Source: Haloarcula marina (GTDB lineage: Archaea > Halobacteriota > Halobacteria > Halobacteriales > Haloarculaceae). Taken from it: DNA of 64,000 nt. A program made the position numbers and the translations under genes. The notes below the pieces were generated by a model. The model had not been told where the DNA came from. It saw only the letters and a program-made list of their open reading frames with translations, and searched no databases. The first letter of the stretch is position 1; each line of letters starts with the position of its first letter. The stretch lies in NCBI RefSeq assembly GCF_024218775.1, contig NZ_CP100405.1, forward strand, positions 124,001 through 188,000. Reading direction: 5' to 3'. Shown piece after piece: positions 19,940 to 58,278 of the stretch.

Positions 19940-19979
19940 TTAACCAACATACGGGCGGGGACTGCAGACAGTTGGTTAA
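19940..19979. repeat. TTAACCAAC inverted repeat, copy 1
   Basis: The arms TTAACCAAC (19940-19948) and GTTGGTTAA (19971-19979) are separated by 22 bp. The same arms and spacing recur near the replication region at 49.3, 51.5 and 55.6 kb. The spacing places the arms about three helical turns apart, as expected for a two-site protein-binding element. Confidence 0.8.
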
Positions 19980-20097
19980 CTAGCTGAGCGAGAAACACAT
20001 ACTTTCTGCGGAGAAAATATTGCGTATGAATTGGTTGCCTTTTCAGCGAACTGTGTAATCGACTCCCTTTTCACCGGCGCCGATATAATATGTGGGA

Positions 20098-20519
20098 ATT
20101 TGAATCATTCATGAGTTCGTCTGAAACCGAGATTTCCATGTACTCACTCGAGCCGAACGACTGCTTCAATCCCTCATGGGTTCGTCTGAAACGCTATCCG
20201 CTCCGCGATTGCCGAGCGTGACACGCTGCTTCAATCCCTCATGGGTTCGTCTGAAACGGTATGTCGACGCTGACGGCGACTATAAGACCGTCGCTTCAAT
20301 CCCTCATGGGTTCGTCTGAAACTATGTCAGAAGAACCTAACCATAGTGTCACAATCGACGCTTCAATCCCTCATGGGTTCGTCTGAAACGACGGATCCCA
20401 CCAGATCGTGGAGCACCCACGGGCGCTTCAATCCCTCATGGGTTCGTCTGAAACGAGGCGCTCGTCCGTGCCCTCGAGGCCAAATCACAGCTTCAATCCC
20501 TCATGGGTTCGTCTGAAAC
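20098..20519 (-). CRISPR. Orphan CRISPR array, 7 repeats and 6 spacers, type I-B-like repeat
   Basis: Six identical 30-bp repeats start at 20163, 20228, 20293, 20360, 20425 and 20490. A degenerate seventh at 20098-20127 has six mismatches. Spacers are 35 bp, except one of 37 bp at 20323-20359. On the minus strand the repeat begins GTTTCAGACGAACCC and ends GGGATTGAAGC, as in haloarchaeal type I-B systems. That orientation and the degenerate repeat at the low-coordinate end place the leader to the right. Instead, a broken integrase gene follows directly at 20520. No cas gene is in the window. Confidence 0.95.
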
Positions 20520-21214
20520 TACCCTGCCGTTCGTGCTTCGAAGGGACGTAGATACAGTTCTGATAGTCGGATAGCTGAGGTGCAGTTCCCAACTCGGGGT
20601 AACACTCTCTGATTTGCGAGTGCGCAATCGTGATGTCTTCGAGACGAATATTCAGGAACTCACCTACCCTCATCCCGAGCTTGAGTAGCCAGATCAAAAA
20701 GAGCCGCTCCCGGATATTCGTACAGCCATGGATGATCTCAGAGATGTCGCTCTCTGTCAGGTGTGGATAGTCCTTCTCATCCGTATCGTCGGCAAGATTC
20801 ATCTCTCGTTTGGCGATGTTGAACGGGTTGTAATCCGAAGGGTGTGGGAATGCGTAATAGTCCTGCCACCATTCGTAGACTCGGCCGAGATTGTCTCGCT
20901 TCTGTTCAATCGTATTCGTCGAGTTCTCCCGTTCGTTTTGGAGGTGAGCCGCAAACCCCTTGATATGCTTCTCGTTGGGGCACGCGGGGTGTCGACCCTC
21001 GTTGGACATGAAGGCTCTCCACTGATCGAACGTGTGACGGTAGTTCTTTAGCGTCGACTCAGAGGGATTCTTCGGGAGTAAAAACCCGTTCGACATAGGC
21101 TTGGAAAAGATCAACGTCGATATCTGCAAAGTCAGCCTCGTACTGACACAGCGGATCAGTTTGTCGACCGAAAGCTTCTGCAACTTCGCCGAGGTTCTGA
21201 TTATGACTCACCAT
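20520..21214 (-). pseudogene. Tyrosine integrase pseudogene, frameshifted and cut off at the CRISPR repeat
   Basis: The intact start is the ATG at 21214 (N-terminus MVSHNQNLGEVAEAFGRQ), which runs to FTPEESL and a stop near 21063. The integrase then continues in another frame from about 21070 (ESTLKNYRHTFDQWRAFMSNEGRHP). One extra base near 21062-21068 explains this. The core-binding domain and the first catalytic Arg (LKLGMRVGEFLNIRLED) are present, but the gene ends at IYVPSKHERQGS where the CRISPR repeat begins. The H-x-x-R and Tyr motifs are missing, so it cannot be active. Confidence 0.88.
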
Positions 21215-21434
21215 GTCTAGTTTGGTTCAACGGCGATTCTCCAGGGTACTCGTATTCCCTGCCTGTCAGCAACACCCTGCACATTGTCAATTTCCTCGGG
21301 CATGCAAAAGCGTCGGCGAGATCGTGGATCCGGCCCGCAACAGATATTCAACAGTAATAGCCAGATGACTAGTGAGATGATGGCAATTCTTATTGTCTAA
21401 TCCCCCTCCGGTCAGAACCTGGCCATTGTACTAA

Positions 21435-24108: not shown

Positions 24109-24263
24109 GGGAGCATCAGTATGGACCTCATGTCTTGAAAACAACGGCTCAAAGCCGCTTCTACACAGGTCCTTTAAACATGGTGGAATATTATGAAAAT
24201 AGATCCACCCTCCCAGTTGCTTTACCGCAATCTACTTACTAACTCTTATCGTATCTCCTAACA

Positions 24264-25892: not shown

Positions 25893-25908
25893 ATCACTAC
25901 ACAACTCA

Positions 25909-26670: not shown

Positions 26671-26855
26671 GTGTTCTCCACTTGATTAAATAATAGCCAT
26701 GCTACAGCGTACTCTATCAGTTTCACAATAGAGAGAATGAGCAGATCAATATTAAATATGTGGATTAGTGTCAATCGAAAATCAAGGCTGGGTCAGGAGT
26801 ACTATTGGCTAGCAAGACATTGAAGATCAAGCATAGACAGCTTCCTCATTGAGTA

Positions 26856-28184: not shown

Positions 28185-28287
28185 ATTTTAAAGGACAGCC
28201 GAGTTATTAATAGCTCTTTATCTATCCATGTGCCATACTCTCTATGAATTCCGTAAGTGGATAAGAGTGCGAGTAGACTGAGGGAGA

Positions 28288-30092: not shown

Positions 30093-30171
30093 TATAAGTA
30101 CCTTTTAGCATTTGGTAACAATTATATGGTAACAGACACCGTAGATTTAGGTTTGTCGCTTCTGAGCAGGC

Positions 30172-41036: not shown

Positions 41037-41179
41037 GCCAGCACAAACCCTACGTTTGGTAATAAATACGGTGGTTGCTCACATCCTGACGAGAGCTCGA
41101 GTTTTCGAAATCTTGGCTCTGTAGTTCGGTATACGGCACTAGTATTCACGAATATCTCCCGATCCGTCGAGTGACCTTG

Positions 41180-41649
41180 GGCCGATCCTCACATCATAGT
41201 TCTTTGAAGTCGTTGAATGTATATCGGTGATGGACAGAATTTCGACATCCACGAATGAAGTAACTTTGAGTGCTCAAACGTCGTAGGTAGTGCGCGTGGC
41301 AAAGGAGCGACTGGCTGCGCACGGTCGAGTTGAAGAAGGCGAGGTCAGCGTACTTCTCAGCTGACGCGCCGAGAAATGCACTCCAAATCTTCAGCAGGAA
41401 TTTGCCCAAATCACTTGCTGGGAACGGTGTTATGAGGCAGATTCCGTCGAGGATGCCACGCATTTCGCTGAGCAAATCTACCGTGACACGGTAAGATTCA
41501 CCCGGATCGATACGAACTGCACGCAAGATGGGCATCATCCACTCAGCGAACTCGTATCCCCGGAGAGCCGGTGGTTCGGCAGGATTTGTAACAACAGATT
41601 CAGGCGTTGCGTCCGTCAGAAAAGTGATGAGACGGATTTCCGGTGTCAC
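41180..41649 (-). pseudogene. Decayed IS5-type transposase remnant
   Basis: The N-terminal part reads GYEFAEWMMPILRAVRIDPGE, LLSEMRGILDGICL and GKFLLKIWSAFLGASAE, resembling haloarchaeal IS5-type transposases. After a frame change near 41277 the next conserved part is LKVTSFVDVEILSITDIHSTTS. The catalytic C-terminal region is missing. No terminal repeats were found. Confidence 0.7.
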
Positions 41650-41906
41650 ACTGACGTGTCACTTCGCTTTCTATAGCAATAACGCAGTCACGGATTCTCT
41701 TTCTAGTAAACCTACAATGCCATGATTAATAAAAACACACCAAGCGCTCATTTAGCGAAAGCCGGCTCAGGATATTAACAAAGCTATGCCGATTTTGACG
41801 GTCTCTATCCCTCAAATTGCGATATTGCGTTATCAGCTTGACAAATCTCCCATAAACCAGAGAGATCTAATCCGGAAGAGAATAGATATAACGTTGCGTC
41901 ACGGTG

Positions 41907-42665
41907 TCACCCCCATTCAGGTTCTCTATTATTAAAGAACGCATCAACGCCTTCTTTTTGATCTTCAGTCCCAAAGAGAAACATATTTGAGGTGACTTCG
42001 TCCACACCATTTGATAAGTTTTTGTTTAACTGTCTCTTAGTCATCTTAGCAGCTAAGGGCGCTGTCGATGCGATTTGCTCTGCTCTCTCGGATATCAATT
42101 CGTTAAGTTCCTCACTTGACGTGATCTCATTCACTAATCCAATCTCAAACGCTTCCTGAGCAGAGAATTCGCGCGAAGTAAGCAATAATTCCCTTGTTCT
42201 TTTTAAACCAATTAAATCTGGAAATCTTGCTAAAGCCACCATCGCAACGTGTCCAAGGTTTGGCTCGGGTAGTCGGAACCTGGCGTTCTCACTCGCGATT
42301 GTAATATCACATAACGCTGCAATTTCACAACCACCTCCAAAGGCGATACCGTCTACCTTTGCGATCACTGGGATAGACACTTCTTCGATAGCAAACATGG
42401 AACTCAATATATGCTCGGTGTACTCCCATAACTCCGAATCGCTCTTACTCTCAAAATCTAAATCAGAGATGTCATCACCTGAAGAGAACGCGCGCCCATT
42501 TCCAGCGAGAATTGCCACACGCACTTCATCATTCTCCTCAGCCTTTTCAAGTGCGGTTTTGAGTTCATTCCATGTCTTCGTTAATAATGCATTCAGCTTC
42601 TCGGGCCGATCAATCGTAATATGCGCAGTTTGCCCGACTATTTCGTAATTTATCTGTTGGAACAT
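41907..42665 (-). CDS. Enoyl-CoA hydratase/isomerase family protein
   Basis: 252 residues, normal for the crotonase fold. The oxyanion-hole segments are GRAFSSGDDISDL and AFGGGCEIAALCD; the acidic residue in RLPEPNLG matches the catalytic Glu region. It hydrates or isomerises a CoA thioester and fits with the CoA-transferase and synthetase upstream. It is flanked by a transposase remnant on one side and a poorly defined stretch on the other. Confidence 0.92.
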   Translation of the reverse strand: MFQQINYEIVGQTAHITIDRPEKLNALLTKTWNELKTALEKAEENDEVRVAILAGNGRAFSSGDDISDLDFESKSDSELWEYTEHILSSMFAIEEVSIPVIAKVDGIAFGGGCEIAALCDITIASENARFRLPEPNLGHVAMVALARFPDLIGLKRTRELLLTSREFSAQEAFEIGLVNEITSSEELNELISERAEQIASTAPLAAKMTKRQLNKNLSNGVDEVTSNMFLFGTEDQKEGVDAFFNNREPEWG

Positions 42666-42861
42666 GCAGGATCATACTGATTCAGAATCATATAGATTTC
42701 GAATTTGAACGTTATCGAGGAGGAGAAATTTCACTTGAATAACCATCCATCTTCCATTCGAAAGCCTAAGTCTACCTCACAATCCTCTTTTTCACTGCCG
42801 ACAATCGGATCGTACATGTTCCAACGGCGGCATTGATTTCCTTAAATAAGAGGGATACCTT

Positions 42862-43245
42862 TTGAATGAGAATCTCGCGAAGGTGGTTGGCCCGTGTCAC
42901 CTGGGCGCGCGGTTCCTTCAGAACGGCGACCAGGCCAGTTCGCACAAGAAGGTGTTCACTATCGCCCAATCAAAGAGCGAAGCGAGCATCGACCGTCATG
43001 ACTTCCTACCGGTGGCACTGAACACTATCTCCAATGGCGCAACTTTTCGAGACGCTCGACGGAGAGCGCGTCAAGACATGCGCTATATCACAGCACCGAT
43101 CATCGGCCATCAAGGCCCCGAAATCGTGGCCCTCAGCCTGTTCGGATACAAGAGCCGGGCACAAGGAAACCGATCTACCGACGAGATACCAAGGCAGTTA
43201 CTCAAATGTGCGAACGTCATCGAGGTGAACCTGACCTCCTCATAG
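42862..43245 (+). other. Doubtful 127-codon frame
   Basis: The frame has GC-rich codons like the following FAH gene but no domain I recognise. Its end (RQLLKCANVIEVNLTSS) faintly resembles the start of an AsnC/Lrp effector domain, so it could be a remnant. A minus-strand frame here is equally unconvincing. Confidence 0.25.
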
Positions 43246-43294
43246 TCGGGGGCAAACACAACAGTTAGGTTGGCGGGCCCAACAGCGTACGGTG

Positions 43295-44146
43295 ATGCAA
43301 TTCGTCCGATACACGAACGGTGGCGGTCCAGAGTGGGGAGTCCGTCTCGACGAGGAGATCGTCCCGTTGTCCGGCCTCCGCGAAGACGTCTCGTACCAGC
43401 AGTTGACCGACCCGGGATTCCTCCAGGTGGTCGAGAACGCCGTCGACGCGGCGTCGTCGCACGCGATTCCGGTCGGCGACGTACGGTTTCTCGCTCCGGT
43501 TCCACGACCCGGCAAGATCATCTGTGTGGGTTTAAACTACCACGACCACGCCGAGGAGCAAGACGAGGAGGTCCCCGAGCGCCCGCTGCTGTTCGGGAAG
43601 TCCCCGTCGTCGGTCACCAACCCGGGTGATCCCATCGTCCACCCGGACGACCTCGAGGAGGTCGACTACGAAGTCGAACTCGGCGTCGTCATCGGACGAA
43701 CCGCTAAGAACGTTTCTGCCGAAGAAGCCCGCGACTATGTCGCCGGCTACACGGCAATCAATGACGTCAGCGGACGAGACGCGCAGTTTGACGACGGGCA
43801 GTTCTTCCGCGGGAAAAGCTACGATACATTCGCGCCGATGGGGCCGACGCTCGTCCCCGACGACCGACTTGACCCTGCCAATCTTGACGTCGCCTGCCAC
43901 GTCAATGGCGAGACCAAGCAGTCCTCGAACACCGAGGAGTTCATCTTCGACGTCCCGGCGGTTGTCGAGTACATTAGCGGGTTCACGACACTGCGCCCGG
44001 GTGACGTCATCTCAACCGGGACCCCTGGCGGCGTCGGCATCTTCCGCGAGCCACCCGAATTGCTCAAACCGGGCGACACTGTCGACGTCGAGATTGAAGG
44101 CATCGGGACGTTAAACAACCCCATCGTTGCCGAATCGGAGATATAA
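43295..44146 (+). CDS. Fumarylacetoacetate hydrolase family protein
   Basis: 283 residues from the ATG at 43295; a GTG one codon earlier is possible. The catalytic domain starts KIICVGLNYHDHAEE. The metal-binding acidic residues lie in EVDYEVELGVVIGR and the conserved segment GRDAQFDDGQFFRGKSYDTFAPMGP follows. Family members hydrolyse or isomerise 2-keto acids, including acylpyruvates and sugar-derived 2,4-diketo acids. It is noticeably GC-richer than the genes at 22-42 kb, so it may have a different history. Confidence 0.92.
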   Translation: MQFVRYTNGGGPEWGVRLDEEIVPLSGLREDVSYQQLTDPGFLQVVENAVDAASSHAIPVGDVRFLAPVPRPGKIICVGLNYHDHAEEQDEEVPERPLLFGKSPSSVTNPGDPIVHPDDLEEVDYEVELGVVIGRTAKNVSAEEARDYVAGYTAINDVSGRDAQFDDGQFFRGKSYDTFAPMGPTLVPDDRLDPANLDVACHVNGETKQSSNTEEFIFDVPAVVEYISGFTTLRPGDVISTGTPGGVGIFREPPELLKPGDTVDVEIEGIGTLNNPIVAESEI

Positions 44147-44724
44147 TCCCACTAACTGTACTCGAACGGAAATTTTCTAATTTTATCCTGGTGTTTTTAA
44201 TCCCAAATAGTTCGAGTGGGGCGTAGTTGAACATTCAAATAAGAAATTCGGGCAGTTCAGGGCGATGAACTCCAGGTGAGGCGAACGATCGCGCACCTCA
44301 ATGAGCAGTGAGCGTTACTTTCAGCAGATGTCCTGCCAAGTTTCGACTATTCTATTTAAATAAAGGAACTCTCAGCGAGGCCACGCTATGAAGCGGAAAA
44401 CGAGGGACGTGAATATCTGAAGGGACTGTCGACTCTGATCTGATAAGTTTAGCCGGGCGAAAAAAGGAGGGCTCAATAGCTCTGGGAGAGAAATCAGATG
44501 ACTCTAAAACAGCGCATCCGTACAAAGGATTCCATCTCTACTTCACCTAAGTCGACAGCTGAATACCGTGGTTATACGAAAATGATCTCGAAATCGAATC
44601 AAACATTAATACCGTAGATGTGTGCCTAATTTTCCACGGCCGACAGAAGAGACCGCTCTCGAGAGATGATACGACAAGCATGCCAACTTAAGAGTGGTAT
44701 TTTACCACTCCGTGTGAACGGTTC
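44147..44724. other. Intergenic stretch without gene
   Basis: About 580 bp between the FAH gene and a membrane protein gene. No coding frame with protein-like composition and no clear repeat. Confidence 0.5.
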
Positions 44725-45588
44725 ATGCGAAATCCTTCCGTCCGTCACGAAAACACGGCCAGCAGGGAAATGAACCAGCAAACGACCTGTCGGTTGCATC
44801 CCGACGACCTCGCCTCGATAGGATGTTCCGATGGCGACGCCGTGGAGCTGTACAATCCGGACACTGGGGCACGGTTTCAGGCGACAGCACGAGCAGCATC
44901 GACAAATATGGACCCCGGACAACTCTCGGTGAGCACCCGCTGTCGGAAGCTCCTCGACGTGGAGTTCCCCGAACGGGCCGACGATGAGCAGGCGACGACG
45001 CTACATGCCCGAAAACCGGTCAAGACAGTCGATGAAAGTGACGAAAAGGGGCTCGTCAATCGATTCACCGACCGACTGCTCGATTGGGCCGTCGACTATC
45101 ACGAGGTTCAGTTACGGGTCAATATCGGACTCAACGCTGACGAAGGTAGGTCGGCGGGCCGGGTAAACGCAGATACGATGGAGGTCCTAGCTATCGACGA
45201 CGGAGATCGTGTTCAGATCCACTCCAAAGACTCAGAAACCACGGTCCGATGTCGAATCATCGAGCCGGAGAGCCACTTCATCGAGACGGACTCCGACATC
45301 GACGCCGCCGACGTCCGTGACAGGACGATCTTGTTGCCATCGACTGCCCGTGAACGCCTGGACGCAGTCTGTGGCGATATCGTTCGCGTCCGACGCGATA
45401 CCCGTCACGTCGCGATTCGCAGCATTACCCCGTCGATGTTTGCGTTCCTGGGCGTGTTGATCAGCGGTCTGCAGATAGTCGACCTGCTGTCACCGTCCTT
45501 GCAACCGTACGCCATTCTGCTCACACTGATTCTCGCCGGTGTCGCGATATGGCTCATGCTCTGGCCGGAGCGAGTTCGCTGTCGGTAG
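44725..45588 (+). CDS. Membrane protein with two double-psi-barrel-like domains
   Basis: 287 residues, or 272 from an internal ATG at 44770. Residues 20-85 (RLHPDDLASIGCSDGDAVELYN) and 135-230 (VNADTMEVLAIDDGDRVQIHS, then STARERLDAVCGDIVRVRR) resemble the double-psi barrels of the Cdc48 N-domain. The C-terminus has two transmembrane helices (about 235-280). No ATPase domain is present. I know no function for this arrangement; a membrane adaptor for a Cdc48-type AAA ATPase is one speculation. Confidence 0.65.
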   Translation: MRNPSVRHENTASREMNQQTTCRLHPDDLASIGCSDGDAVELYNPDTGARFQATARAASTNMDPGQLSVSTRCRKLLDVEFPERADDEQATTLHARKPVKTVDESDEKGLVNRFTDRLLDWAVDYHEVQLRVNIGLNADEGRSAGRVNADTMEVLAIDDGDRVQIHSKDSETTVRCRIIEPESHFIETDSDIDAADVRDRTILLPSTARERLDAVCGDIVRVRRDTRHVAIRSITPSMFAFLGVLISGLQIVDLLSPSLQPYAILLTLILAGVAIWLMLWPERVRCR

Positions 45589-45739
45589 GACGTGCAGGCC
45601 GAGTGCCGAGACCTATTAATCTGCCCCCGATGGTCAGAACGGAATCGACGGCAACGACACGCTCTTGGCGAGTCGAACAGCCACCGCCAGTGCCTTGACC
45701 GTCTCGATACTGCGTTCGGCGCGCTCGAACGGCCCGTGC

Positions 45740-46267
45740 TCAGACCCGACGCGCGAAGTACAGTGTATCGACGCCAGCACCCCTATCGTCGGGAATACGG
45801 GCGACTTCCTCGAATCCGAGATTTTCGAGTACCGCGATGTGGGCCTCGTTCGTGTGCCACGTCTTCGTCGAGGCAGCGGGAGCGTGCCATGCATTTGGGA
45901 CGTCAGACAGTAGCGTCTGATACATCCGCATCGCAAGGCCACGTCCGCGATGTGACTCGTCGACCGCGATGATTTCGACGTGATTCGTCGGCGTGAACGC
46001 ACTGAGTGCGTCAGCGTCTTCGAGTCGTTCGAACGAGCAAAACCCGACGAGATGTCCCTCATCGAACGCTCCGATCATCGGCCGCTCCAGACACCGCTTG
46101 ACGTAGCCCTCGATGTTCGTTGCGCCTCCCTCGCCCGGTGCACGCGAGACTGCGGACCGCGTCTCGCTCGTTAGTGCGGGGACGAACTCCTCATCGACGT
46201 GTTTGAGGAGCCGTGTGACTCCGTTTCAAGAGGGCGTGGTTTCTTCGACGAATCGCACAGTCGCCAT
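45740..46267 (-). pseudogene. GNAT acetyltransferase gene interrupted by an in-frame TGA
   Basis: Reading from the ATG at 46267 gives MATVRFVEETTPS, then TGA at 46228-46226, then an open frame continuing in the same phase (NGVTRLLKHVDEEFVPALTSETR) to the normal end. The acetyl-CoA-binding region is intact (VDESHRGRGLAMRMYQTLL, ENLGFEEVARIPDD). A translated product could start downstream at an internal GTG or ATG. A single substitution, sequencing error or readthrough are the alternatives. Confidence 0.75.
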
Positions 46268-46510
46268 GGGGGGTGCTTTGGCTACAGCCCCACAGATAAA
46301 AGTCTCGACGGTGTCGCCGTACGTCGAGCGGACACACTCGAACGTGGATAGACCCATGTCTCACTCAGACCGATGGACTGTCCGTGGAGTCGAAGCCATC
46401 GTAGTACAGAGGTAGATGTCAATGTCTCGTTCACGTCCGCGTGGCACTCACCCGGCCAACAGTCGCCGTTGGTACACTTGAACGTCGTCTCTTTCAGGAC
46501 ACGAAAGAGG

Positions 46511-46905
46511 TCATCCTTTCATCCCCGAGAGACTCATCCCGCGGATGAAGTAGTTCTGTGCGGCGAGGAACACGAGGATGACCGGCGCGACGATGATGAG
46601 CGCCGCCGCCATCATCAGGCCCCACTCGGCAAAGTACTGGTTCCGAACCGCGAACAGCGCGATGGGGAGGGTGTACATCTCCGTGTCGTTGGCGATGATC
46701 AACGGCCACTGGAAGTTGTTCCACGTGCCCATGAAGGTGAAGATGCCCAACGTCGCCAACGCGGGTTTCGCCAGCGGCAGATAGATCTTATAGAACGTCT
46801 GGAACTCGTTGCAGCCGTCTATCTTTGCTGCGTCGCCGAGCGCCGACGGCAGGCTCTTGAAGTGCTGGCGGAGCAAGAAGAGGCCCAACGGCTGCGCGAC
46901 GAGCC
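46511..46905 (-). pseudogene. ABC sugar permease (MalG type) C-terminal fragment
   Basis: Residues LGLFLLRQHFKSLPSALGDAAKIDGCNEF (EAA loop) through FLAAQNYFIRGMSLSGMKG form the last 125 or so residues of a MalG-type permease. The upstream half is absent: beyond about 46,900 the sequence belongs to a histidine kinase read from the other strand. The stop codon is intact. Confidence 0.85.
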
Positions 46906-47422
46906 GCTCGACGACGTCGTCAAGGACACCCTCTGGCTGGTACAAGAAGACGAGACGGTCTCCAAAATGTCGATGGTCGACATCCAATCTGTTGCAGAGG
47001 ACGCGTGGCGACTCGTCGGCGACGACGCGGTCACGCTGCACACCGCGTCGATAGAACGGATTCCGGCCAACAGGTCCCTCTTACAAACGGTTTTCGAGAA
47101 ACTGTTCGAGAACACGCTTGCGCACACGACGGCTTCTCGGATCAACGTCGGGCCCTGCTACAAAGGTGACTATCTCGACGGATTCTACGTGGCCGACGAC
47201 GGCAAAGGATTCGACACAGCCACACCAGAGGAACTGTTCGAAATAGGCACCAAGGAAGGGAGTGGTGGGGCGGGTATTGGACTCGCTATCGTTGACGAAA
47301 TCGTCCGACGTCACGATTGGTCTATCACAGCGACCGAAAGCGACGAAGATGGAGCTAGGTTCGAAATAAGGCCGAAACGGTATCTCTGTACGAATATCGC
47401 TTACCAGCCGGTAAACGGATAG
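46896..47422 (+). pseudogene. Histidine kinase C-terminal fragment
   Basis: The HATPase domain is present: N-box LLQTVFEKLFENTLAH, G1 VADDGKGF, G2 GSGGAGIGLAIV. It begins abruptly with LDDVVKDTLWLVQEDE after the junction at about 46,900, so the sensor and H-box are missing. An open frame runs on to 46373 through the antisense of the permease fragment, but that part is not real protein. Confidence 0.85.
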
Positions 47423-47473
47423 AATATGCGGTAAAACAAGCGATATATATTGGGCTACGGGTTATTCGGTAGT

Positions 47474-48085
47474 ATGAGTAAGCCGGGGCAAGAATCGGTC
47501 TCGAACGACACGCGTGAGGCCATTATGGAGGCGACGTTCCGCGCCATCAGCACGCAGGGCTACAACGACCTCCGGATGCGCGACATCGGCGAGGAGATGG
47601 AGATGACCCGGCAGGTCATCCACTACCACTACGACGGAAAGCACGACCTGATGAGTCACTTCCTCGAATACATCATCGATCAGTACGAGGGGAGTGTCGA
47701 AGTCGCCGCCGACGCACCGCCCCGCGAGGAATTGGACGCCCGTATCGACCAATGCCTGTTCGGCCCCGAGTTCAGCGACTTCGGCCACTGGGACCGGATG
47801 AAGGTCTATCACGAACTGTTCACCCACGCCCAGAACGACGCCGAACACCGGGCTATCTTCAACGAGCACTACGAGCGTATCCGTGGCAGCATCACGGAAG
47901 TGATCGAAGAGGGTATCGAGCAGGGCGTCTTCCGCGATGTCGACGCCGCACGGATGGGCCAACTCATCACGGACGCCATCCACGCTGCTCGCGGTCGGCG
48001 GCTCTCACTCGGTCACGACGAAGCCCCTGAACAGACCCGCCAGTCCATCGACGAGTTCGTCCTCACCGCACTCGACGTCGAATAA
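47474..48085 (+). CDS. TetR-family transcriptional regulator
   Basis: 203 residues from the ATG at 47474. The helix-turn-helix is REAIMEATFRAISTQGYNDLRMRDIGEEMEMTRQVIHYHYDGKHDLMSHFLEY-like in positions 15-65. The ligand domain is all-helical and acidic. TetR proteins usually repress a nearby transporter or catabolic gene; here the candidates on both sides are broken, so its target is not evident. Confidence 0.9.
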   Translation: MSKPGQESVSNDTREAIMEATFRAISTQGYNDLRMRDIGEEMEMTRQVIHYHYDGKHDLMSHFLEYIIDQYEGSVEVAADAPPREELDARIDQCLFGPEFSDFGHWDRMKVYHELFTHAQNDAEHRAIFNEHYERIRGSITEVIEEGIEQGVFRDVDAARMGQLITDAIHAARGRRLSLGHDEAPEQTRQSIDEFVLTALDVE

Positions 48086-48098
48086 CCGCCTGCGCGGC

Positions 48099-48475
48099 CT
48101 ACTCCTGCTCACCGAAGACACCCATTGCTTCCAGTTCGTCGAGTTCGTCCGCCGAGTATCCCAACTCAGCGAGCACCTCTCGGTGTGTTCCCCGAGAAGC
48201 GGCGGGGCCAACTCGAACCCGCTATCGGCGTTCGCGAATTTCAGTGGGTGTTCGATTACCGGACTCACCCCGAGTTCGGGGTGGTCTATCTCAGTGATAG
48301 CTCCCCGTGTGTCGATTTGTGGATTGTTCAGCGCTTCATCGACCTCGTAAACCGGGCCAGCAGGCACACCTCCTTCTTCGGTGATGATCTCGATACACTA
48401 CTCTATCGTCCCCTGGGTCAGCGTCTCTTCGAGTTCGGCTTCGAGCGCGTCTTGATAGGTCAGAAAACGCCCTTA
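48099..48475 (-). pseudogene. CoA-transferase (CaiB/BaiF) C-terminal remnant
   Basis: The remnant begins with FLTYQDALEAELEETLTQGTIE, then has an in-frame TAG (48400-48398). It continues with CIEIITEEGGVPAGPVYEVDEAL and HPELGVSPVIEHPLKFA. A frame change near 48180 leads to the normal end VLAELGYSADELDELEAMG and a TAG at 48099. The N-terminal two-thirds is absent. It is not a copy of the gene at 22.9 kb at close identity. Confidence 0.85.
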
Positions 48476-48536
48476 GCGCCCAGTCCCGCTGGTTGGTCAG
48501 CACCCTTATGGCGTCTGAAAAACAATCAATCGTTGT

Positions 48537-49190
48537 ATGTCAGACGATCCGATTTATCAGGAGACGGAACCACGTACTCGGAAGGGTCTTGCATCGTACT
48601 TCTATCGCCTGTCCAGAGCGCTTCGGCGCGGTGAGCCAGTCCCTGCCGACGAAGAGCAGTCAGTGACAGTCGATCCGGCCGCAGAATCCGACCTCACTGT
48701 CGACGTCACGCGGGACGGTGACGAAGTCAACCTCGATATCGGAATGTCGTGGACCGAGTCTGACGAGGGCGACATCGAGACGGACGTGACCGCCAGCAAG
48801 GCGACTTTCGAGCGGTACCAGGACACCGCTGATGAATGGCGGTGGCGACTGGTCCACAACAACGGCAACATCATCGCTGATTGTGGGGAGGGGTACGCTT
48901 CCAAGCAGAAAGCCACCCAAGGACTCGACAGCGTGAAAGAAAACGCACCCGGCGCACACATCCTCGACACGACAAAAGACGAGTCCACCGTCGAGAATCC
49001 GGAAACAGGCAGCGATGCAACCTTCGAACTGTTCACGGATTCCGCCGAGAAGTTCCGCTGGCGACTCGTCCACGACAACGGAGACATCATCGCCGACGGT
49101 GGCCAGGGATACGCATCGAAACAGAAGGCTACGCAGGGACTCCGCAGTGTGCAAACGAATGCTCGTGGTGCGCCTGTCGTCGACGAATAA
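48537..49190 (+). CDS. Amphi-Trp/DUF1508-type protein with two repeats
   Basis: 217 residues. Residues 1-80 resemble an amphi-Trp domain (ending NLDIGMSWTESDEGD). Two tandem repeats follow, each with a core FRWRLVHDNGDIIADGGQGYASKQKATQGL: residues about 92-142 and 160-215. This core matches the HVO_2922-type/DUF1508 fold, a small beta-rich dimeric unit. Function is unknown, though such proteins are common in haloarchaea. It is intact, unlike its upstream neighbours. Confidence 0.8.
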   Translation: MSDDPIYQETEPRTRKGLASYFYRLSRALRRGEPVPADEEQSVTVDPAAESDLTVDVTRDGDEVNLDIGMSWTESDEGDIETDVTASKATFERYQDTADEWRWRLVHNNGNIIADCGEGYASKQKATQGLDSVKENAPGAHILDTTKDESTVENPETGSDATFELFTDSAEKFRWRLVHDNGDIIADGGQGYASKQKATQGLRSVQTNARGAPVVDE

Positions 49191-49292
49191 CGAGCATACA
49201 CGCACGTATCCGCACGAGACACAGATTGAGGACACCGTCCCGCGATTGCACAGCAACGGACACCTCCGAAAGGCTACGCACAGTTTGGTGCC

Positions 49293-49335
49293 GTTAACCA
49301 ACAAAACTATCGTATAGGCTGCTTTGTTGGTTAAC
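49293..49335. repeat. TTAACCAAC inverted repeat, copy 2
   Basis: Perfect 13-bp arms: GTTAACCAACAAA (49293-49305) and TTTGTTGGTTAAC (49323-49335). The shared 9-bp core arms are 23 bp apart. The right arm ends 15 bp before the ATG at 49350, so it could control that gene. Confidence 0.85.
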
Positions 49336-49349
49336 ACGAAGCGAGACTC

Positions 49350-49664
49350 ATGTCTTACGACCCACCGACCCCACCAGCAGAACTGCCAGCCGAAGTCGTA
49401 GACACGCTCAACGGCTCGTCACCGGAGACCCTCACTCGCATCGCCCGGTACGCCGAGGAACTCGCGACGCACAAACGCCGAGAAGCACGGCTAGAGGCCG
49501 ACGAAGCGAACGAAGAATCCCCGGAGGACCGCCCCGATGGCGTCCCGTCGAAAGCGACAGTCACCGAGAAAGAGATCAATGGGAACCGGTACTACTACTG
49601 GCAGTGGCGCGACGGCGAGAAGATTCGCTCGCAGTACAAAGGCCCGGTGAACGACGACAGCTAA
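49350..49664 (+). CDS. Small conserved haloarchaeal protein next to the origin
   Basis: 104 residues. It has an acidic helical N-terminal part (ETLTRIARYAEELATHKRREARLEADEA) and a C-terminal beta unit NGNRYYYWQWRDGEKIRSQYKGPV, with the same aromatic-rich core as DUF6788-type proteins. The function of the family is not known. Its stop codon lies at the first iteron, so the gene abuts the replication origin. Confidence 0.72.
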   Translation: MSYDPPTPPAELPAEVVDTLNGSSPETLTRIARYAEELATHKRREARLEADEANEESPEDRPDGVPSKATVTEKEINGNRYYYWQWRDGEKIRSQYKGPVNDDS

Positions 49665-49913
49665 CAGCGGAACCAGTGGGGTGGCCACGTACCGCTAACA
49701 GCGGAAGTAGTGGGGTCACCTGCTCACTAACAGCGGAACCGATGGGGTGGCCACCTACCGCTAACAGCGGAAGTAGTGGGGTCACCTGCTCACTAACAGC
49801 GGAACCGGTGGGGTGGTGTGTTCGGATATACCGGCCGAGCGGCCCAAACGCGACCTGTTAACAGCGGAAGTGGTGGGGTAGTCGCGTATAGCTAACAGCG
49901 GAACCAGTGGGGT
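49662..49913 (+). repeat. Seven-iteron array (ORB-like) downstream of orc1/cdc6
   Basis: Seven copies of about 21 bp, consensus TAACAGCGGAACCAGTGGGG plus T, start at 49662, 49696, 49728, 49762, 49794, 49859 and 49893. The first five are 32-34 bp apart, in phase with the helix, and alternate AACCAG/GATG and AAGTAG centres. All have the same orientation. The last one overlaps the stop codon of orc1/cdc6. The terminal G-run is a feature of haloarchaeal origin recognition boxes. Confidence 0.92.
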
Positions 49914-51100
49914 CAGGGTGTCGAATCAAGTAGTTCGGACAAGCCTGCCTCCACGGACGAAATCGACTGTTCGAGTTCGTGCTCTTTGTACTTTCCACCG
50001 CCCTTCCCCCTGTTGTACTCCGTCGACGAGATGATGCCCAGTTGATCAAGTTCACCGAGGTAATCGCGCACCGAGCGCTCGGACACCGGGTCCATTCCCT
50101 CCTCGGTTGCGACGTGCTGATACGCTTCGAGGATGTCTTTCGTTCGTGCCGGAGTTTGCTCTCGCTCTGCCAAGAGCGTCAGCGCGTAGAGGACGAGTTG
50201 CCCGTGGTCGGAGTAGTTCCGAATCCCTTCGACGACCTGGTCGGTCTGCAGGCGCTTTCGCGCGTTGCGAACGTGTCGCTCGGAAACATTTTCGTCGTTG
50301 TTCTCCCGTGCGAGGTCACCTGCTTCGAGCAGTAGGTCCAGCGCCTGCCGGGCGTCACCGGAGTCTTTCGCGCCGTAGGCCGCACACATCTCGATGACCC
50401 CCTGGTCCAACACGTCGTCCTTGAACGCGACCGCTTCGCGTTGTTCCAGGACGAGTTGCAGTTCCCCGGCATCGTACGCCGAGAACGAGACTTCCTTTTC
50501 ACAGAGGCTGGAGCGGACTTTCGACGAGAGTTGGTTGCGGAAGTCGAGGTCGTTCGAGATACCGATGACACCGAGTTTCGCCTCGGTAACGTCGCCGTTA
50601 GAACGCGCACGGGGGAGTTTATACAGGAGCGAGTCGTCTCTTATGTGGTCGACTTCGTCCAGAACGATGAGCACGGTCCCACCGACGTTGTCGAGTTCCT
50701 CGAACAGGAACTGATAGACCGACGCCTGGGGATACCCCGTGTTCGAGATTTGGTCGGCGGGGTCGCGAAGTTCGTTCACCAACGCGACGGCGACCTGATA
50801 GCTGGAGTTGAGGCCGTCGCAGTTTATTTCGATCGTGTGCAGGTCCAACGGTTCGACCTCTTCGGCGTCGCGTTCGAGTGCGTGTAACAGGTACCGTGTC
50901 GCGGCGGTCTTTCCGACGCCGCTCTTACCGTAGAGGAAGATGTTGGAAGGACTCTCGTTGTTGATCACCGGCTGGAGAGCCGCGTGATATCGTTGCAGTT
51001 CCTCGTCGCGCCCGACGAGTTCGTCGGGAGTCCATTCCTCGAGTAGCGCCTCCCGCTTCTCGAAGATGGAAGAGGAGGGAGTGAACGTGAGGTCGCTCAT
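49913..51100 (-). CDS. Orc1/Cdc6 replication initiator
   Basis: 395 residues from the ATG at 51100; the longer frame to 51184 runs into the iterons. The AAA+ core has Walker A GKSGVGKT (58-65), Walker B LIVLDEVD (about 144-151) and sensor 1 GVIGISND. The C-terminal winged helix (about 310-380) contacts origin boxes. In archaea the initiator binds recognition boxes beside its own gene. Here iterons flank both ends, so this is very probably the origin of the replicon. The iterons upstream lie within the promoter region, so self-control is likely. Confidence 0.95.
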   Translation of the reverse strand: MSDLTFTPSSSIFEKREALLEEWTPDELVGRDEELQRYHAALQPVINNESPSNIFLYGKSGVGKTAATRYLLHALERDAEEVEPLDLHTIEINCDGLNSSYQVAVALVNELRDPADQISNTGYPQASVYQFLFEELDNVGGTVLIVLDEVDHIRDDSLLYKLPRARSNGDVTEAKLGVIGISNDLDFRNQLSSKVRSSLCEKEVSFSAYDAGELQLVLEQREAVAFKDDVLDQGVIEMCAAYGAKDSGDARQALDLLLEAGDLARENNDENVSERHVRNARKRLQTDQVVEGIRNYSDHGQLVLYALTLLAEREQTPARTKDILEAYQHVATEEGMDPVSERSVRDYLGELDQLGIISSTEYNRGKGGGKYKEHELEQSISSVEAGLSELLDSTP

Positions 51101-51177
51101 TGGGATAACTCCGTAACGAACCAACTTAACCTTTGGTTCCGTTGCTTCCGCTGTTGAGGGAGGTTTATATACTACCG

Positions 51178-51435
51178 GCCCCACAAGTTCCGCTGTTAGC
51201 TGATGGGTGCTGGAATGGGGTGGGTCACACCCACCCCACTGGTTCCGCTGTTAGATCTAGAGAGTGTGTCGTAACTATCCTCAGCAGGCTGAATAAGTTT
51301 CTAGAGCTAGTGAATAAGTATAAGTATACGGAGAAGAAAACAAACCCGTATGCTGTTTTTCACGAGATGACAAAACACCCCCTGACATGGGGGTGGTGCT
51401 GTCTATCTCTGCGCTAACAGCGGAAGTAGTGGGGT
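51178..51435. other. Candidate replication origin: inverted iterons around an AT-rich segment
   Basis: Two iterons in minus orientation (51178-51198, 51233-51253) and one in plus orientation (51415-51435) flank about 160 bp. This includes an AT-rich stretch at about 51290-51350 (AATAAGTTTCTAGAGCTAG and following). The arrangement resembles haloarchaeal origins, where inverted boxes flank the unwinding element upstream of orc1/cdc6. Confidence 0.8.
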
Positions 51436-51521
51436 GGGGGTGTTCTTATCTCGGGCCACTTCTGGCGAAACGTTTCCTGTTCATCATCTCTTCACCGTTC
51501 TCCATGACTATCCCACTTCGT

Positions 51522-51561
51522 TTAACCAACGGATATATGCACATCAGAATCTGTTGGTTAA
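51522..51561. repeat. TTAACCAAC inverted repeat, copy 3
   Basis: Arms TTAACCAAC (51522-51530) and GTTGGTTAA (51553-51561) are 22 bp apart. The right arm contains the stop codon of the PolB fragment, as the half-site at 53311 does for the full PolB gene. Confidence 0.85.
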
Positions 51562-51945
51562 CCTCTCCTCGACTCTGAGAACGCGCGCAACGAGGGTTGC
51601 TCTGTTTCAGATAGTTCTCGTCGAATCTCTGTCCGATCCCACCCCAACGGTGAGCGGACACTCTCGACAGCTCGAATGAGTCGAGTCTCGTAGTACGAGG
51701 GGTCGTACGCCTCTATCTCCTCGTGGGCCAACGCGACCCGTTCTCGCGAGCCCTTCTTATGATTGACGACCACGTACTTGATGTCCTGTCCGGCGTGTAC
51801 GGTGAAGTCCTGCTCACGAGTTCGCTTCAGCGCCGCGACGTGCTGTGTGTTCTGCGTGTATCCTTCCAGCGGCTTGGAGACACGATTTCGTTGGCCGATC
51901 TGTTCACTCGGCACCGCTCCAGCGAAGACTGGTGGGAGACCATCC
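51558..51945 (-). pseudogene. PolB C-terminal fragment
   Basis: About 120 residues, from SEQIGQRNRVSKPLEG to the end, align almost without gaps with the C-terminus of the full PolB at 53.3-55.5 kb (PDQLVERNRVSKPLEG; GWDRTEIRRELSE versus GWDRTDIRRELAD). The rest of the gene is missing. The sequence differs enough to be an old paralog or a different plasmid's copy rather than a recent duplication. Confidence 0.88.
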
Positions 51946-51994
51946 CGTCGAAAGTAGCATGTACCTGATTCCGGGTTTTCTTCTCGGACAACCA

Positions 51995-52090
51995 TTAGCT
52001 GAAAGTAGGTGCTGTATCCCCTCCCTGCTCGCGCCTTCCCTTCGGTCGGCGCTCGCTGAGGAAGGGGGCTTAGCGCCTACTTTCAGCTAA
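51995..52090. mobile_element. 96-bp palindromic element with perfect 15-bp ends
   Basis: Ends TTAGCTGAAAGTAGG (51995-52009) and CCTACTTTCAGCTAA (52076-52090) are perfect inverted repeats. The interior is also hairpin-rich. Its centre is nearly identical to 58780-58859 beside the IS200/IS605 element. It looks like a nonautonomous element of the kind moved by IS200/IS605 transposases; palindrome-associated elements are known in haloarchaea. Confidence 0.7.
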
Positions 52091-52186
52091 AGACGCGGGT
52101 TTCCGCCTCGCTTTCATTATGAATTCCACAACTTGTTTCGAGAGAATACACCAGCCATCGCTTTGAGAGGCAAGTCTATGGAAAGC

Positions 52187-52633
52187 TCAATCCTCCCAGA
52201 GCGATTGGATACGTCCCTCGATGGCATCAAGAACCGTAGAATAGACATCCAGCGGATGGCGCGATGACAGTGACAGGTCGGTAGCCTCTACTGCAGTTGG
52301 TGGTTGATGAAAGTGCAGTCGTGCGTTGTGTGGATTGGGATGGCGGTCCCAGCGACACTCCCATCGGCTATCATCCTGGTGCGTTTCGACGTAGTGGAAC
52401 GAGAAATCTCCCGTGGTAAACCAGCGAATATCGACACGGGTAGCTACGACGGTCTCAGGATACTGTCCCGCGTCAACGAGGGCATGAAGAAGGCGAGGTT
52501 CGTAGGTGTCTGGATCGAATTCCGTCTCCACAATGAGTGCCTCAGTTCGAAGGTTACGGTCCAAGAGCTGTAGCGTCTGTCGATCGGGTGGACCTGGCGA
52601 CCCTGAATTCGAGTCTGCTGGGTCCGGCTTCAT
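52187..52633 (-). CDS. Putative toxin-like protein (DUF6516-like)
   Basis: 148 residues. The central part reads WFTTGDFSFHYVETHQDD followed by WECRWDRHPNPHNARLHFHQPP. This order, a YHY-like strand then RWD-x-HP-x-H-x-H, resembles DUF6516 proteins, which are found in toxin-antitoxin-like pairs. It starts one base after the stop of an HTH protein gene. Toxicity is inference only. Confidence 0.6.
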   Translation of the reverse strand: MKPDPADSNSGSPGPPDRQTLQLLDRNLRTEALIVETEFDPDTYEPRLLHALVDAGQYPETVVATRVDIRWFTTGDFSFHYVETHQDDSRWECRWDRHPNPHNARLHFHQPPTAVEATDLSLSSRHPLDVYSTVLDAIEGRIQSLWED

Positions 52634-53161
52634 CTATGCCGGGATGAGATGTCCGTCGTTCTCTGCGAGCTGACGGGCGAGTTCATATAGTCGAATATCT
52701 CGAATAATTCCACGCCACTCACTGACTGCAGCCATCCGGTCATGAATGGTCTCGTGGCTATCGTCATCGTATACGCTCACAGTAGTTGGATCGGTAGCAT
52801 CAAATTCGTCTTCATACTTGGCTCGTTCTTCTTCAAGTTCACCCACCCGGTTGATAATCTCTTCAACAGTCAGTTCGTCGGCAATCCGGCTCGCATCTTG
52901 CCATTCAAGATATCCCTCGTTGCGTTCGTACTGCATGGGTCGACCGTCGCGGCTCACACTGACGATACCCATGTCTACCAATCGGTCAAGATGCTTTTTC
53001 GCAGTGTTTGGGGAGCAGTCGGCGATATCTGCAATCTTCGCTGCTGGGATGGGTGAGGTGATCCCCATAGCAACGTCGTAGACACGGCTGAACGTATCTT
53101 CTCCCTGCTGCCACCGGCGTTCGGTGGCTGAGGGTTCCGGCGCGGGGTCAAACTCTGTCAT
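52634..53161 (-). CDS. Winged-helix protein, probable antitoxin/regulator partner
   Basis: 175 residues. The winged helix covers about residues 20-75 (TSPIPAAKIADIADCSPNTAKKHLDRLVDMGIVSVS). A long charged helix follows (EEIINRVGELEEERAKYEDEFDA), and the C-terminal helix ends LYELARQLAENDGHLIPA. Its stop directly abuts the start of the 148-residue protein, so the pair is co-translated. Regulation of its own promoter would be usual for such pairs. Confidence 0.72.
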   Translation of the reverse strand: MTEFDPAPEPSATERRWQQGEDTFSRVYDVAMGITSPIPAAKIADIADCSPNTAKKHLDRLVDMGIVSVSRDGRPMQYERNEGYLEWQDASRIADELTVEEIINRVGELEEERAKYEDEFDATDPTTVSVYDDDSHETIHDRMAAVSEWRGIIRDIRLYELARQLAENDGHLIPA

Positions 53162-53315
53162 AGACGCTACTACAAGTTCGAGCGCAATATATCTTTGCGA
53201 GGTTCAAATATATGCGCTATACTCAACGAGATAAATCCTCTACCGAAGCAATATGCTCAGTCACTGGCCACAGGAGTGTGAAAGTATTAACCTACCTTGA
53301 GAGAGACATTGTTGG

Positions 53316-55466
53316 TTAACAAAAGTCTCTCAGTCTCCTCGTAGTCGTATCAGCGAGCTCCCGTCGAATATCTGTCCGATCCCAACCCTTTGGAGAGAGT
53401 ATACTCTCGACCGCTCGAACGAGTTGTGTCTCGTAGTACTCGGGATCGTATTCCTCAACCTCTTCGTGTGCTAATGCGACACGGTCCCGAGATGATTTTT
53501 GATCGTCGACGACCACGTACTCGATATCCTGTCCTGGATGGACACTCAATTCTTGATCTCGTGCTCGTTTGAGCGCGGCCACATTTTGCGTGTTCTGGGT
53601 ATACCCTTCCAGTGGTTTTGAGACTCGATTCCGTTCGACGAGTTGGTCGGGAGCAACCTCCCCGGAATGCAGGCTCGCAATCGCTGCTTTGAGCTGGCAG
53701 ATGACTGCGTCGGGAGACCGTGTCTCATCAAGGACCTCTAGACACTCCCGCTGTACCGCTTCGATGAACGGCGGTGTCGACCGCTGACGAGCTTCGATGC
53801 CTCTGACCTTGAAGCCACCGTCGACAGCGACTTTCCCGAAGTATTTCGTCAACGCGCCAGCGTCGCTCTCGCGCTGCGGCACGAACGCCACCCAGTCGTA
53901 GTGGGCTTCGTGTTCGAGCCGAATCTCGACTTCCTCGGTAATGTCCGTCGCGACCCTCTCGAGGTCCTCACAATCCTCGTTGTCGACGCCGGGGTCCGGG
54001 GTCACCCAGATGGAGTCGACGATGCCGTGGACGACGCGCCAGCCGCCAGCCTCCAGCCGCTGTTTCGCCGTCAGCAGAATCTCGCGAGCGAACGCGTTGA
54101 TCGCCTCGTGGCACTCGATGCGCCCGAATTTCGCGTTGCTGAACCCCTGATACCCGAAGCAGGCGACGAGGATCCACTTCAGCGCACCCGACCGACCTTC
54201 GAGTTCCGCGAGTCGCTCCTCATCGGGGTCGTCCCGCTCGTTCTCGCGACGGATGGCGGCCTTGATCTCGTCGCGAGCGTCGATGATCGGCTGTAGCACG
54301 TCGACGAGGTAGCCCCGGTCGTCGCAGATGGCGTATCCGAGCCCAGGAACGTCGTCGCGGTCGCGGTGGCACTCACAACGAATGACGTCCGGCGAGACAT
54401 TTTGGGTACAGATGATGTTCGGGTACAACGAGGAGAAGTCGAGTTCGTGAACGTTCTCGTGGAAACCGACCTCCGGCGCGAAGATGAACCCGCCGCGGTC
54501 GGCGTCGTGCAACGTGGCCATCGACTTGTAGAACTCGTGGCGCCAGGAGTTCCACGGGACGAGGACGCCGCGGTCGTGGGCCTCACAGATCTGAATCGCC
54601 GTGAGTACGTTCCCGATCGACGCCCAGGCGAGTTCCTGGACGGGCTTTTTCGAGCGCGACACGAGGTCGAGGACGCCCTCGAGGTTCGTCTCCCCGTAGA
54701 AGAACGTGTTCGACTCGTCGATGATCGCCCGACCGGGTACGTTGTACCGCGCCGGGGAGTGGCCGACACGACCGTAGCTCGCGTACGTCGACCGGCTGGC
54801 GAGTTGCTGGTAGTCGACGTCCGGCAACCGACTCAGCGAGAAGTCGTCGACGCCGGCGGCCGTCGCCATCTCGTAGAGGGTCGGGACGATCTCGCTCGTC
54901 GAGCAGACTAGCACGTCCGGATCGTGGGCTTCGAGCGCTGCTTGGACGACCGACAGAAGCTCCGTCGGCGAGCCGGTGACGGTTTCACCGGCGACGGACA
55001 GTTCCCCGTAGACGTCGTTGCTCGTTTCGGTCACTGGAACGCCGAGCCGGAGCGTCGACAGCTCGCTCGCTGGCGTCGGGTCGACGCCGTTCTCCAGACA
55101 GTATCGGAACTCTCGCGAGAAGTCGACGTTGAAACAGGCGAGATTCCCGACTGGATAGTCCGACAGTTGGCGTGCCTGCCGAGCGAGCGGGGTGACGCGG
55201 TCGACGTGGACGACGTCGACGGCGAGGACTGTCTCCTCATCCCGTCGAAATCCGGGGCGTTGTGTAACCATCTCGGTCGCGACGACGTCTGGGTGCTGGT
55301 CGTACACCGACTGGAGTGCCGTGAGGTCGATGTCCTCTCCCGGGTCGCGAGCGCCGACGTAGAAGCGTGGGGTGTAGTCCTCACGTTCGGTCGCGACAGC
55401 GCCGTCGGCGGTTGCCTCCCACTCCAAGATGCGGCCATCGTCGAGAAAGTCGATGGTGAACGGCAT
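53316..55466 (-). CDS. polB: Family B DNA polymerase, plasmid type, without recognisable exonuclease motifs
   Basis: 716 residues. Polymerase motif A is ELDFSSLYPNI (Asp343) and motif B runs from Lys430 (KWILVACFGYQG). Motif C reads HGIVDSIW instead of YGDTDS, so only Asp484 remains of the usual Asp-x-Asp. In known enzymes the second Asp is the metal ligand, so activity is possible. The N-terminal part lacks the exonuclease DxE and NxxxFD motifs, which suggests no proofreading. It lies 2.2 kb from the origin and probably serves replicon copying or repair. A fragment of a second PolB lies next to the origin. Confidence 0.9.
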   Translation of the reverse strand: MPFTIDFLDDGRILEWEATADGAVATEREDYTPRFYVGARDPGEDIDLTALQSVYDQHPDVVATEMVTQRPGFRRDEETVLAVDVVHVDRVTPLARQARQLSDYPVGNLACFNVDFSREFRYCLENGVDPTPASELSTLRLGVPVTETSNDVYGELSVAGETVTGSPTELLSVVQAALEAHDPDVLVCSTSEIVPTLYEMATAAGVDDFSLSRLPDVDYQQLASRSTYASYGRVGHSPARYNVPGRAIIDESNTFFYGETNLEGVLDLVSRSKKPVQELAWASIGNVLTAIQICEAHDRGVLVPWNSWRHEFYKSMATLHDADRGGFIFAPEVGFHENVHELDFSSLYPNIICTQNVSPDVIRCECHRDRDDVPGLGYAICDDRGYLVDVLQPIIDARDEIKAAIRRENERDDPDEERLAELEGRSGALKWILVACFGYQGFSNAKFGRIECHEAINAFAREILLTAKQRLEAGGWRVVHGIVDSIWVTPDPGVDNEDCEDLERVATDITEEVEIRLEHEAHYDWVAFVPQRESDAGALTKYFGKVAVDGGFKVRGIEARQRSTPPFIEAVQRECLEVLDETRSPDAVICQLKAAIASLHSGEVAPDQLVERNRVSKPLEGYTQNTQNVAALKRARDQELSVHPGQDIEYVVVDDQKSSRDRVALAHEEVEEYDPEYYETQLVRAVESILSPKGWDRTDIRRELADTTTRRLRDFC

Positions 55467-55632
55467 GTGTTATTACATCCTCCTAACACCTTACAGAACA
55501 ACCGAACGGCCGATAAGCCATGGCGTGTCGCTTCCGGATTTCGGCAAAAGGGTGTCACGAAGACTCTCGACGGCAGATTTTGGCTCCCTGTCGACAGCTT
55601 CCGGACCGCTTTCCGGAATCTACCAGCTAGTA

Positions 55633-55673
55633 TTAATCAACAGTATTTGACTATTGCCGCGGATGTTGGTTAA
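55633..55673. repeat. TTAACCAAC inverted repeat, copy 4
   Basis: Arms TTAATCAAC (55633-55641, one mismatch) and GTTGGTTAA (55665-55673) are 23 bp apart. It lies 167 bp upstream of the PolB start. Confidence 0.75.
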
Positions 55674-58277: not shown

Positions 58278-58278
58278 T

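Follow-up and report, generated by a model that had tools for sequence, protein, structure and literature searches.

A dispersed inverted repeat on a Haloarcula plasmid and the small haloarchaeal protein family proposed to bind it

The stretch of DNA analyzed here (the window) comprises 64,000 nucleotides, positions 124001 to 188000 of C2, a 364-kb Haloarcula plasmid in a genome of 3.74 Mb and three contigs, and carries dispersed copies of an inverted repeat whose exact form is TTAACCAAC-N22/23-GTTGGTTAA. Four pairs of arms had been listed in an earlier note on this DNA; the three exact ones were confirmed, at 19940-19979 (22-bp spacer), 49294-49334 (23-bp spacer), and 51522-51561 (22-bp spacer), and the fourth, at 55633-55673, has a 23-bp spacer and one mismatch. 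The arm at 53311-53319, previously described as lone, proved to be paired with TTAACCTAC at 53287-53295, with one mismatch and a 15-bp spacer, and the counterpart of this short-class repeat (53287-53319) on a Haloarcula marina plasmid has a 13-bp spacer. The repeat at 49294-49334 ends 15 bp before the ATG (49350) of a plus-strand gene, 49350-49664, encoding a 104-amino-acid (104-aa) protein, the proposed binder of the repeat. Next to this gene, on the minus strand, are the orc1/cdc6 replication initiator gene (49913-51100), a gene fragment (51558-51995) encoding the C-terminal part of a family B DNA polymerase (PolB) and sharing 60% identity with residues 584-716 of the intact protein, and the intact PolB gene itself (53316-55466). 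As claimed earlier, the stop codons of the PolB fragment and of PolB are located in repeat arms, namely the right arms of 51522-51561 and 53287-53319, respectively; the 3' ends of both genes thus run into a repeat.

The pairing of arms, rather than the abundance of single arms, was what exceeded chance: the window contained 15 single arms with at most one mismatch, against 8.2 expected, a mild enrichment reached by 2 of 100 dinucleotide shuffles, whereas its three exact pairs had no equivalent in any of the 100 shuffles. The whole of C2 carried seven pairs when up to one mismatch was allowed, compared with 0 in each of 10 composition-matched random sequences, and the whole genome contained six exact pairs, five on C2 and one on C1, with none for the reversed control. 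The 9-mer GTTGGTTAA occurred at 16 places on both strands of the genome; 12 of these belonged to the six exact pairs, two to imperfect pairs on C2, and two stood alone on C1.

The repeat was widespread among haloarchaea. Pairs were present in 29 of the 32 genomes of the genus and, with a stricter pattern that included a tenth base, exact pairs were present in 201 of the 292 Halobacteria sampled, again with a reversed control of 0. A genome collection yielded pairs in at least 120 stretches, mostly haloarchaeal contigs of many genera together with some unrelated bacteria, and a further 83 stretches were found among viral contigs, including unrelated low-GC phages; the low-GC viral matches with 27-bp spacing appeared, by eye, to represent one recurrent sequence of unrelated phages. 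The arm extended to TTAACCAACA in 84 to 89% of arms. Among 281 unique pairs from loci of at least 45% GC, with the single-arm loci L033-L048 left out, the spacer was 22 to 25 bp in 257, 11 to 16 bp in 11, 19 to 21 bp in 5, and longer in 8; when arms of 10 bp were required, spacers measured 20 to 23 bp at 246 of 267 unique sites and 9 to 13 bp at 12, and none fell between 14 and 17 bp. These spacer classes are separated by roughly one helical turn, a step that points to a protein bound to DNA, and both the tight spacing and the minor class one turn shorter support the earlier proposal of a protein that contacts one face of the DNA over about three helical turns. The search of the whole genome and related replicons that the earlier note had called for was carried out, and it revealed copies that were not placed at random and spacing that did not drift, so that neither outcome named there as refuting occurred; together, the comparisons document a family of sites with a fixed geometry. 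A mobile repeat of the miniature inverted-repeat transposable element type was set aside, since spacers and flanks vary from site to site. A purely viral element was likewise rejected: phiH (positions 20000-58072 read) and Humcor1 contained no pair at up to three mismatches, and BJ1 contained one imperfect pair.

When genes adjacent to sites were clustered, the top family was a protein of about 104 to 107 aa, and in all 26 adjacencies the site preceded its start. When the genus was searched by protein sequence, without use of the site, relatives were detected in 29 of the 32 genomes, and the remaining three, G005, G020, and G026 (the last 58% complete), lacked both protein and pair. Among 30 loci fetched by protein, all 24 close relatives, including that of the window, had a pair no more than 20 bp from the start, exact in 23 cases and with a single mismatch in the other, and of the six distant relatives, four had CTAACCAACA-type arms and two had no palindrome. 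Across the class, a close relative (E value of at most about 1e-39) was found in 155 of the 292 genomes, and 154 of these had pairs, with a median of 9, compared with 47 of the 137 genomes without a close relative; at least three pairs were present in 150 of the 155 and in 17 of the 137, respectively. The only close-relative genome without an exact pair, G138, had two copies of the gene: one lacked a recognizable start or upstream repeat, and the other had an in-frame TGA at a locus with a one-mismatch pair. In G067, G110, and G279, which contained 3, 5, and 4 pairs, respectively, a relative was undetectable.

The sequence of the site changed with that of the protein. Distant relatives were taken from 40 genomes without a close one, and the DNA upstream of the gene at 30 loci was screened for inverted repeats of such geometry, whatever their arms. 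Three subfamilies emerged, with arms of TTAACCAACA in A, CTAACCAACA in B, and GTTACCCCAC in C, with spacers mostly of 20 to 23 bp and a typical distance from the end of the repeat to the start codon of 14 bp (A), 3 bp (B), or 1 bp (C). The arm-agnostic search found a perfect 9-bp repeat upstream of 64 of 69 A genes, 6 of 7 B genes, and 11 of 12 C genes, counts that cover all members collected, many of them from loci fetched by pattern; among control genes in the same regions, a nonmotif repeat preceded 4 of 321. Ten of the 11 C repeats had a GTTACCCC-type arm, and one had unrelated arms. The B and C palindromes were also dispersed, occurring in 24 of 292 genomes (up to 14 copies) and 30 of 292 genomes (up to 12 copies), respectively, and the reversed control was 0 in both cases. 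Such a change of site with protein sequence is as direct recognition predicts, and this covariation, read from sequence comparison, is regarded as the strongest single argument that the protein is the binder. A further subfamily, D, was located mostly on chromosome-sized contigs; at the D loci L455-L460, a small gene family adjoined in five of six cases and a gene of about 450 aa in four of six.

The AlphaFold2 model of the 104-aa protein contained helices at residues 14-21 and 25-53, with block means of the predicted local distance difference test (pLDDT) of 91 to 94 for residues 11-40 and 76 for residues 41-50, and then a low-confidence linker and a predicted three-stranded beta sheet at residues 70-97 (strands 70-76, 79-88, and 91-97; block means of 66 to 77). 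The conserved stretch of the family was KATITIKEINDNRYYYWQWREG...SKYKGPV. No usable relative of the window protein emerged when Pfam, NCBIfam, and PDB were searched by sequence, and PHROG 22659, whose function is unknown, matched weakly (0.0065 for the window protein and 1e-5 for L137). One sequence, L265:1223-1567, which was caught by the family profile, is DUF6788 according to Pfam, a remote link through which the C-terminal domain of the family may be related to DUF6788; PF20586 (DUF6788) did not match the window protein or the B, C, and D members tested.

The neighborhood of the family was recurrent. Of 27 A-type loci, 24 had a member of the gene cluster of the window's orc1 close by, 17 had a member of the PolB cluster, and 19 had a divergent winged-helix gene; one member of the winged-helix cluster also matched a nucleotidyltransferase family. 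Orc1 was encoded within 9 kb of six of eight C genes and three of six B genes, and a ParA-like gene was encoded within 9 kb of four of six B genes and three of eight C genes, with mixed arrangements of ParA at the B and C loci. Excluding the own site, the density of sites around A genes was 2.3 per 10 kb at 2 to 4 kb, 1.1 to 1.5 at 4 to 10 kb, and 0.5 at 10 to 20 kb, and on C2 four of the six non-own sites were within 20 kb of the gene (p = 0.002). The earlier association of the repeat with the replication region was thus supported, with one site before the 104-aa gene beside orc1 and the others densest 2 to 10 kb away. Repeats resembling origin recognition boxes (ORBs; TAACAGCGGAA...GTGGGGT) were present seven times in tandem at 49662-49893, after the 104-aa gene, and three more (at 51415, 51188, and 51243), two of them inverted, were found on the far side of orc1/cdc6; the motif GTGGGGT is common to the subfamily C arm and the ORB-like repeats. 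Near the distal site at 19940-19979 were a small winged-helix open reading frame (ORF; 18787-19050), a PadR-like ORF (18264-18884), and an integrase-like ORF (20485-21183). However, our own dicodon caller, the source of the gene calls in this analysis, placed no gene between 18578 and 20485; on BJ1 it called 58 genes against 70 annotated. C2 is a close relative of the H. marina plasmid, which matched positions 49000-56000 of the window with 98.4% identity over 92% of the query; this near-identity broke off at the polB start (55466), and the next site common to both plasmids, with an equal spacer, was at C2:192294 here and at L049:29281 in the H. marina plasmid.

Sites other than the own-gene copy were conserved and occupied the gaps between genes. 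In a comparison of orthologous non-own sites with loci not fetched by pattern, from which pairs with more than 96% flank identity were left out, arms were 0.965, spacers 0.791, and flanks 0.902 identical (43 sites, 146 pairs; p = 4e-8), a test of arm conservation that is one-sided in that query sites have exact arms by definition. For gap classes and placement, loci of at least 50% GC were used. The 144 independent site families comprised 4 that were intragenic, 7 at the family's own genes, 11 at locus edges, and 122 that were classed in gaps, of which 78 were tandem, 28 convergent, and 16 divergent; 28 edge sites were left out of the gap-orientation count, and 11 edge sites together with 11 sites in gaps of more than 1500 bp were left out of the placement test. 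Among the 111 non-own sites tested, 5 were located within 40 bp before a start codon, compared with 21.7 expected from random placement, 34 were located 40 to 150 bp before a start (29.3 expected), and 48 were located within 50 bp of a stop codon (33.9 expected). Unlike the own-gene copy, then, the distal copies shun core promoters, which favors a role that spares transcription, such as segregation or DNA organization; this avoidance is also compatible with regulation from a distance.

From these patterns, we infer direct binding, dimerization, autorepression, and a maintenance role, in the following form. The binder would be a family of haloarchaeal proteins of about 100 to 130 aa, represented here by the ORF at 49350-49664, and it is very probable, judging from linkage and covariation, that this 104-aa protein is what binds the repeat. 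The protein would act as a dimer, probably joined via its helical N-terminal part, with each arm contacted by one C-terminal beta-sheet domain, both on a common face of the DNA and three turns apart. The own-gene copy covers or abuts the presumed core promoter, a position in which bound protein would repress the gene, and this copy therefore probably mediates autorepression; the earlier suggestion of an operator fits it. The remaining intergenic copies, densest 2 to 10 kb from the gene within the orc1 module, could serve as dispersed centromere-like or DNA-organizing sites for plasmid maintenance; this is the least certain step, and we propose it tentatively as the first choice over ordinary operators, with plasmid-wide regulation second. 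The partition site suggested earlier may apply to these copies. As a whole, the reading in which the repeat is the binding site of the family, its own copy autorepresses, and the others serve plasmid maintenance is the one toward which, on balance, we lean.

Several observations weigh against this reading. The Fisher p value for the class-wide association between close relatives and pairs (8e-39) overstates independence because the genomes are related, the E-value cut of about 1e-39 was chosen after the list had been seen, and the association has one site per protein built into it, because each protein comes with its own. Pairs, 1 to 5 per genome, were also present in 16 of the 65 sampled genomes that lacked any relative, and a fuller search of these 16 recovered a relative in only one, a weak match (G234). 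Within the genus, G003, G007, G015, G016, G023, and G030 had 1 to 5 A-type pairs with relatives that were only distant or partial, and the plasmid G006:C4 had five exact pairs and no relative either by protein search or in the stretches read (40001-60000 not read). Subfamily D had an upstream repeat in none of 10 cases, as did none of three unclassed members. The density of sites less than 2 kb from A genes, excluding the own site, was low (0.47 per 10 kb). Only 2 of 23 A genes had a ParA gene within 9 kb, several kilobases off where present, and in 11 of 15 loci ParA was followed by a gene for a protein of 117 to 142 aa that could be the real centromere binder. The beta domain of the 104-aa protein was modeled with a block-mean pLDDT of only 66 to 77, and fold searches gave no E value below 0.001 in PDB or viral models (best Z of 3.2), an uninformative outcome that does not show a new fold. 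The loci with ParA and a 117- to 142-aa gene were L403, L407, L426, L437, L441, L447, L448, L454, L482, L483, and L484; two of the 117- to 142-aa proteins were scanned and gave no Pfam match.

The alternative that survives best, possible although in our judgment unlikely, keeps the binder unchanged and makes it a regulator of transcription across the plasmid, in the manner of KorA/KorB of RK2, with distal copies acting as operators through looping or spreading. The promoter position of the own-gene copy, the slight excess of distal copies 40 to 150 bp before starts, and the divergent winged-helix gene that 19 of 27 loci have on the far side of the own-gene site would all be expected of it. The distal copies do not follow suit: they avoid core promoters, they are not depleted between convergent genes, and no fixed distance to starts was apparent by eye.

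It is very improbable that another protein, such as Orc1/Cdc6, the divergent winged-helix protein, or a host factor, binds the repeat and that the 104-aa protein is merely a linked target. Orc1 is a frequent neighbor, and sites occur in genomes without a detected relative, as such a binder would allow; against this, the site covaries with the subfamily of the 104-aa protein, ORB-like repeats of a different sequence adjoin orc1, and in 8 of the 27 A loci no winged-helix gene was detected. The small helix-turn-helix proteins, Orc1/Cdc6, and PadR-like protein put forward earlier are not the best candidates, the unannotated ORF inside the cluster being a better one, and the idea of a second origin-binding element obtained no direct support.

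Two readings can be given hardly any credence. A recombination or gene-cassette site of the attC type would account for the frequency of sites at gene 3' ends and for arms that hold a stop codon; however, tandem, divergent, and convergent gaps were hit roughly in proportion to gap length, orthologous sites stay in place with conserved arms, and the near-identity with the H. marina plasmid ends at the polB start, 167 bp before the site is reached. An RNA hairpin or bidirectional terminator, to which the same nearness to 3' ends (within 50 bp for 48 of 111 sites, against 33.9 expected) would point, is scarcely credible given that spacers are 22 to 25 or 11 to 15 bp with almost none between, which DNA helical phase fits better than RNA loops, and that the identical form stands directly before the start codons of family genes.

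Several large plasmids often coexist in a haloarchaeon, and little is known about how they are maintained and distinguished from one another. An unannotated family whose close members occur in 155 of the 292 sampled Halobacteria, and its probable sites, about 1,650 exact copies there as calculated from class means, now both become testable, and three site specificities in one family would provide a handle on plasmid upkeep and discrimination. The pair may also give an initial clue to the function of the DUF6788-like domain. A bolder interpretation, which we regard as doubtful for now, is that the family represents a new class of archaeal plasmid segregation or organization system, with a beta-sheet protein family that lacks a recognized relative and reads two arms three helical turns apart, a dispersed centromere of intergenic sites around the replication module, and at least three specificities (A, B, and C) that could define plasmid compatibility groups. 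No description of the protein-site pair or of the element, and no paper on DUF6788, was found in the literature searched, most subscription journals and bioRxiv being outside the search.

The protein-site pair was compared with several known systems. Integron attC sites bound mobile one-gene cassettes; here, orthologous sites keep their place and all gene orientations occur. As for DUF6788 (PF20586), L265 was caught by the family profile, yet the members tested had no match to the Pfam model. KorB (and KorA) of RK2 is a plasmid-encoded DNA-binding protein with several dispersed palindromic sites, some of them far from promoters. The 104-aa protein likewise has several dispersed palindromic sites on its own plasmid (seven pairs on C2), but a profile search found no ParB-type domain in it, the prediction being a helical hairpin plus a beta sheet, and the site consists of two arms of 9 to 10 bp that are three turns apart. 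Repeats around cdc6 genes on haloarchaeal replicons are described, in the available part of PMC3936714, as origin recognition boxes bound by Orc1/Cdc6; the ORB-like repeats of the window are separate from the A arms and unlike them. SegB of Sulfolobales is, in the available part of PMC12284271, a site-specific archaeal DNA-binding protein of the ribbon-helix-helix type whose sites are found both in front of its own operon and at scattered positions elsewhere, and about 83% of its 13-bp sites are intragenic. Most sites here are 40 to 43 bp long, and 4 of the 144 site families lie within genes; the model of the 104-aa protein shows a three-stranded sheet, with moderate pLDDT and no informative fold match. 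SegB is moreover cotranscribed with the ParA-type ATPase gene segA, whereas only 2 of 23 A genes have ParA within 9 kb. What the two systems share is an archaeal protein with a site upstream of its own gene and further sites scattered beyond it.

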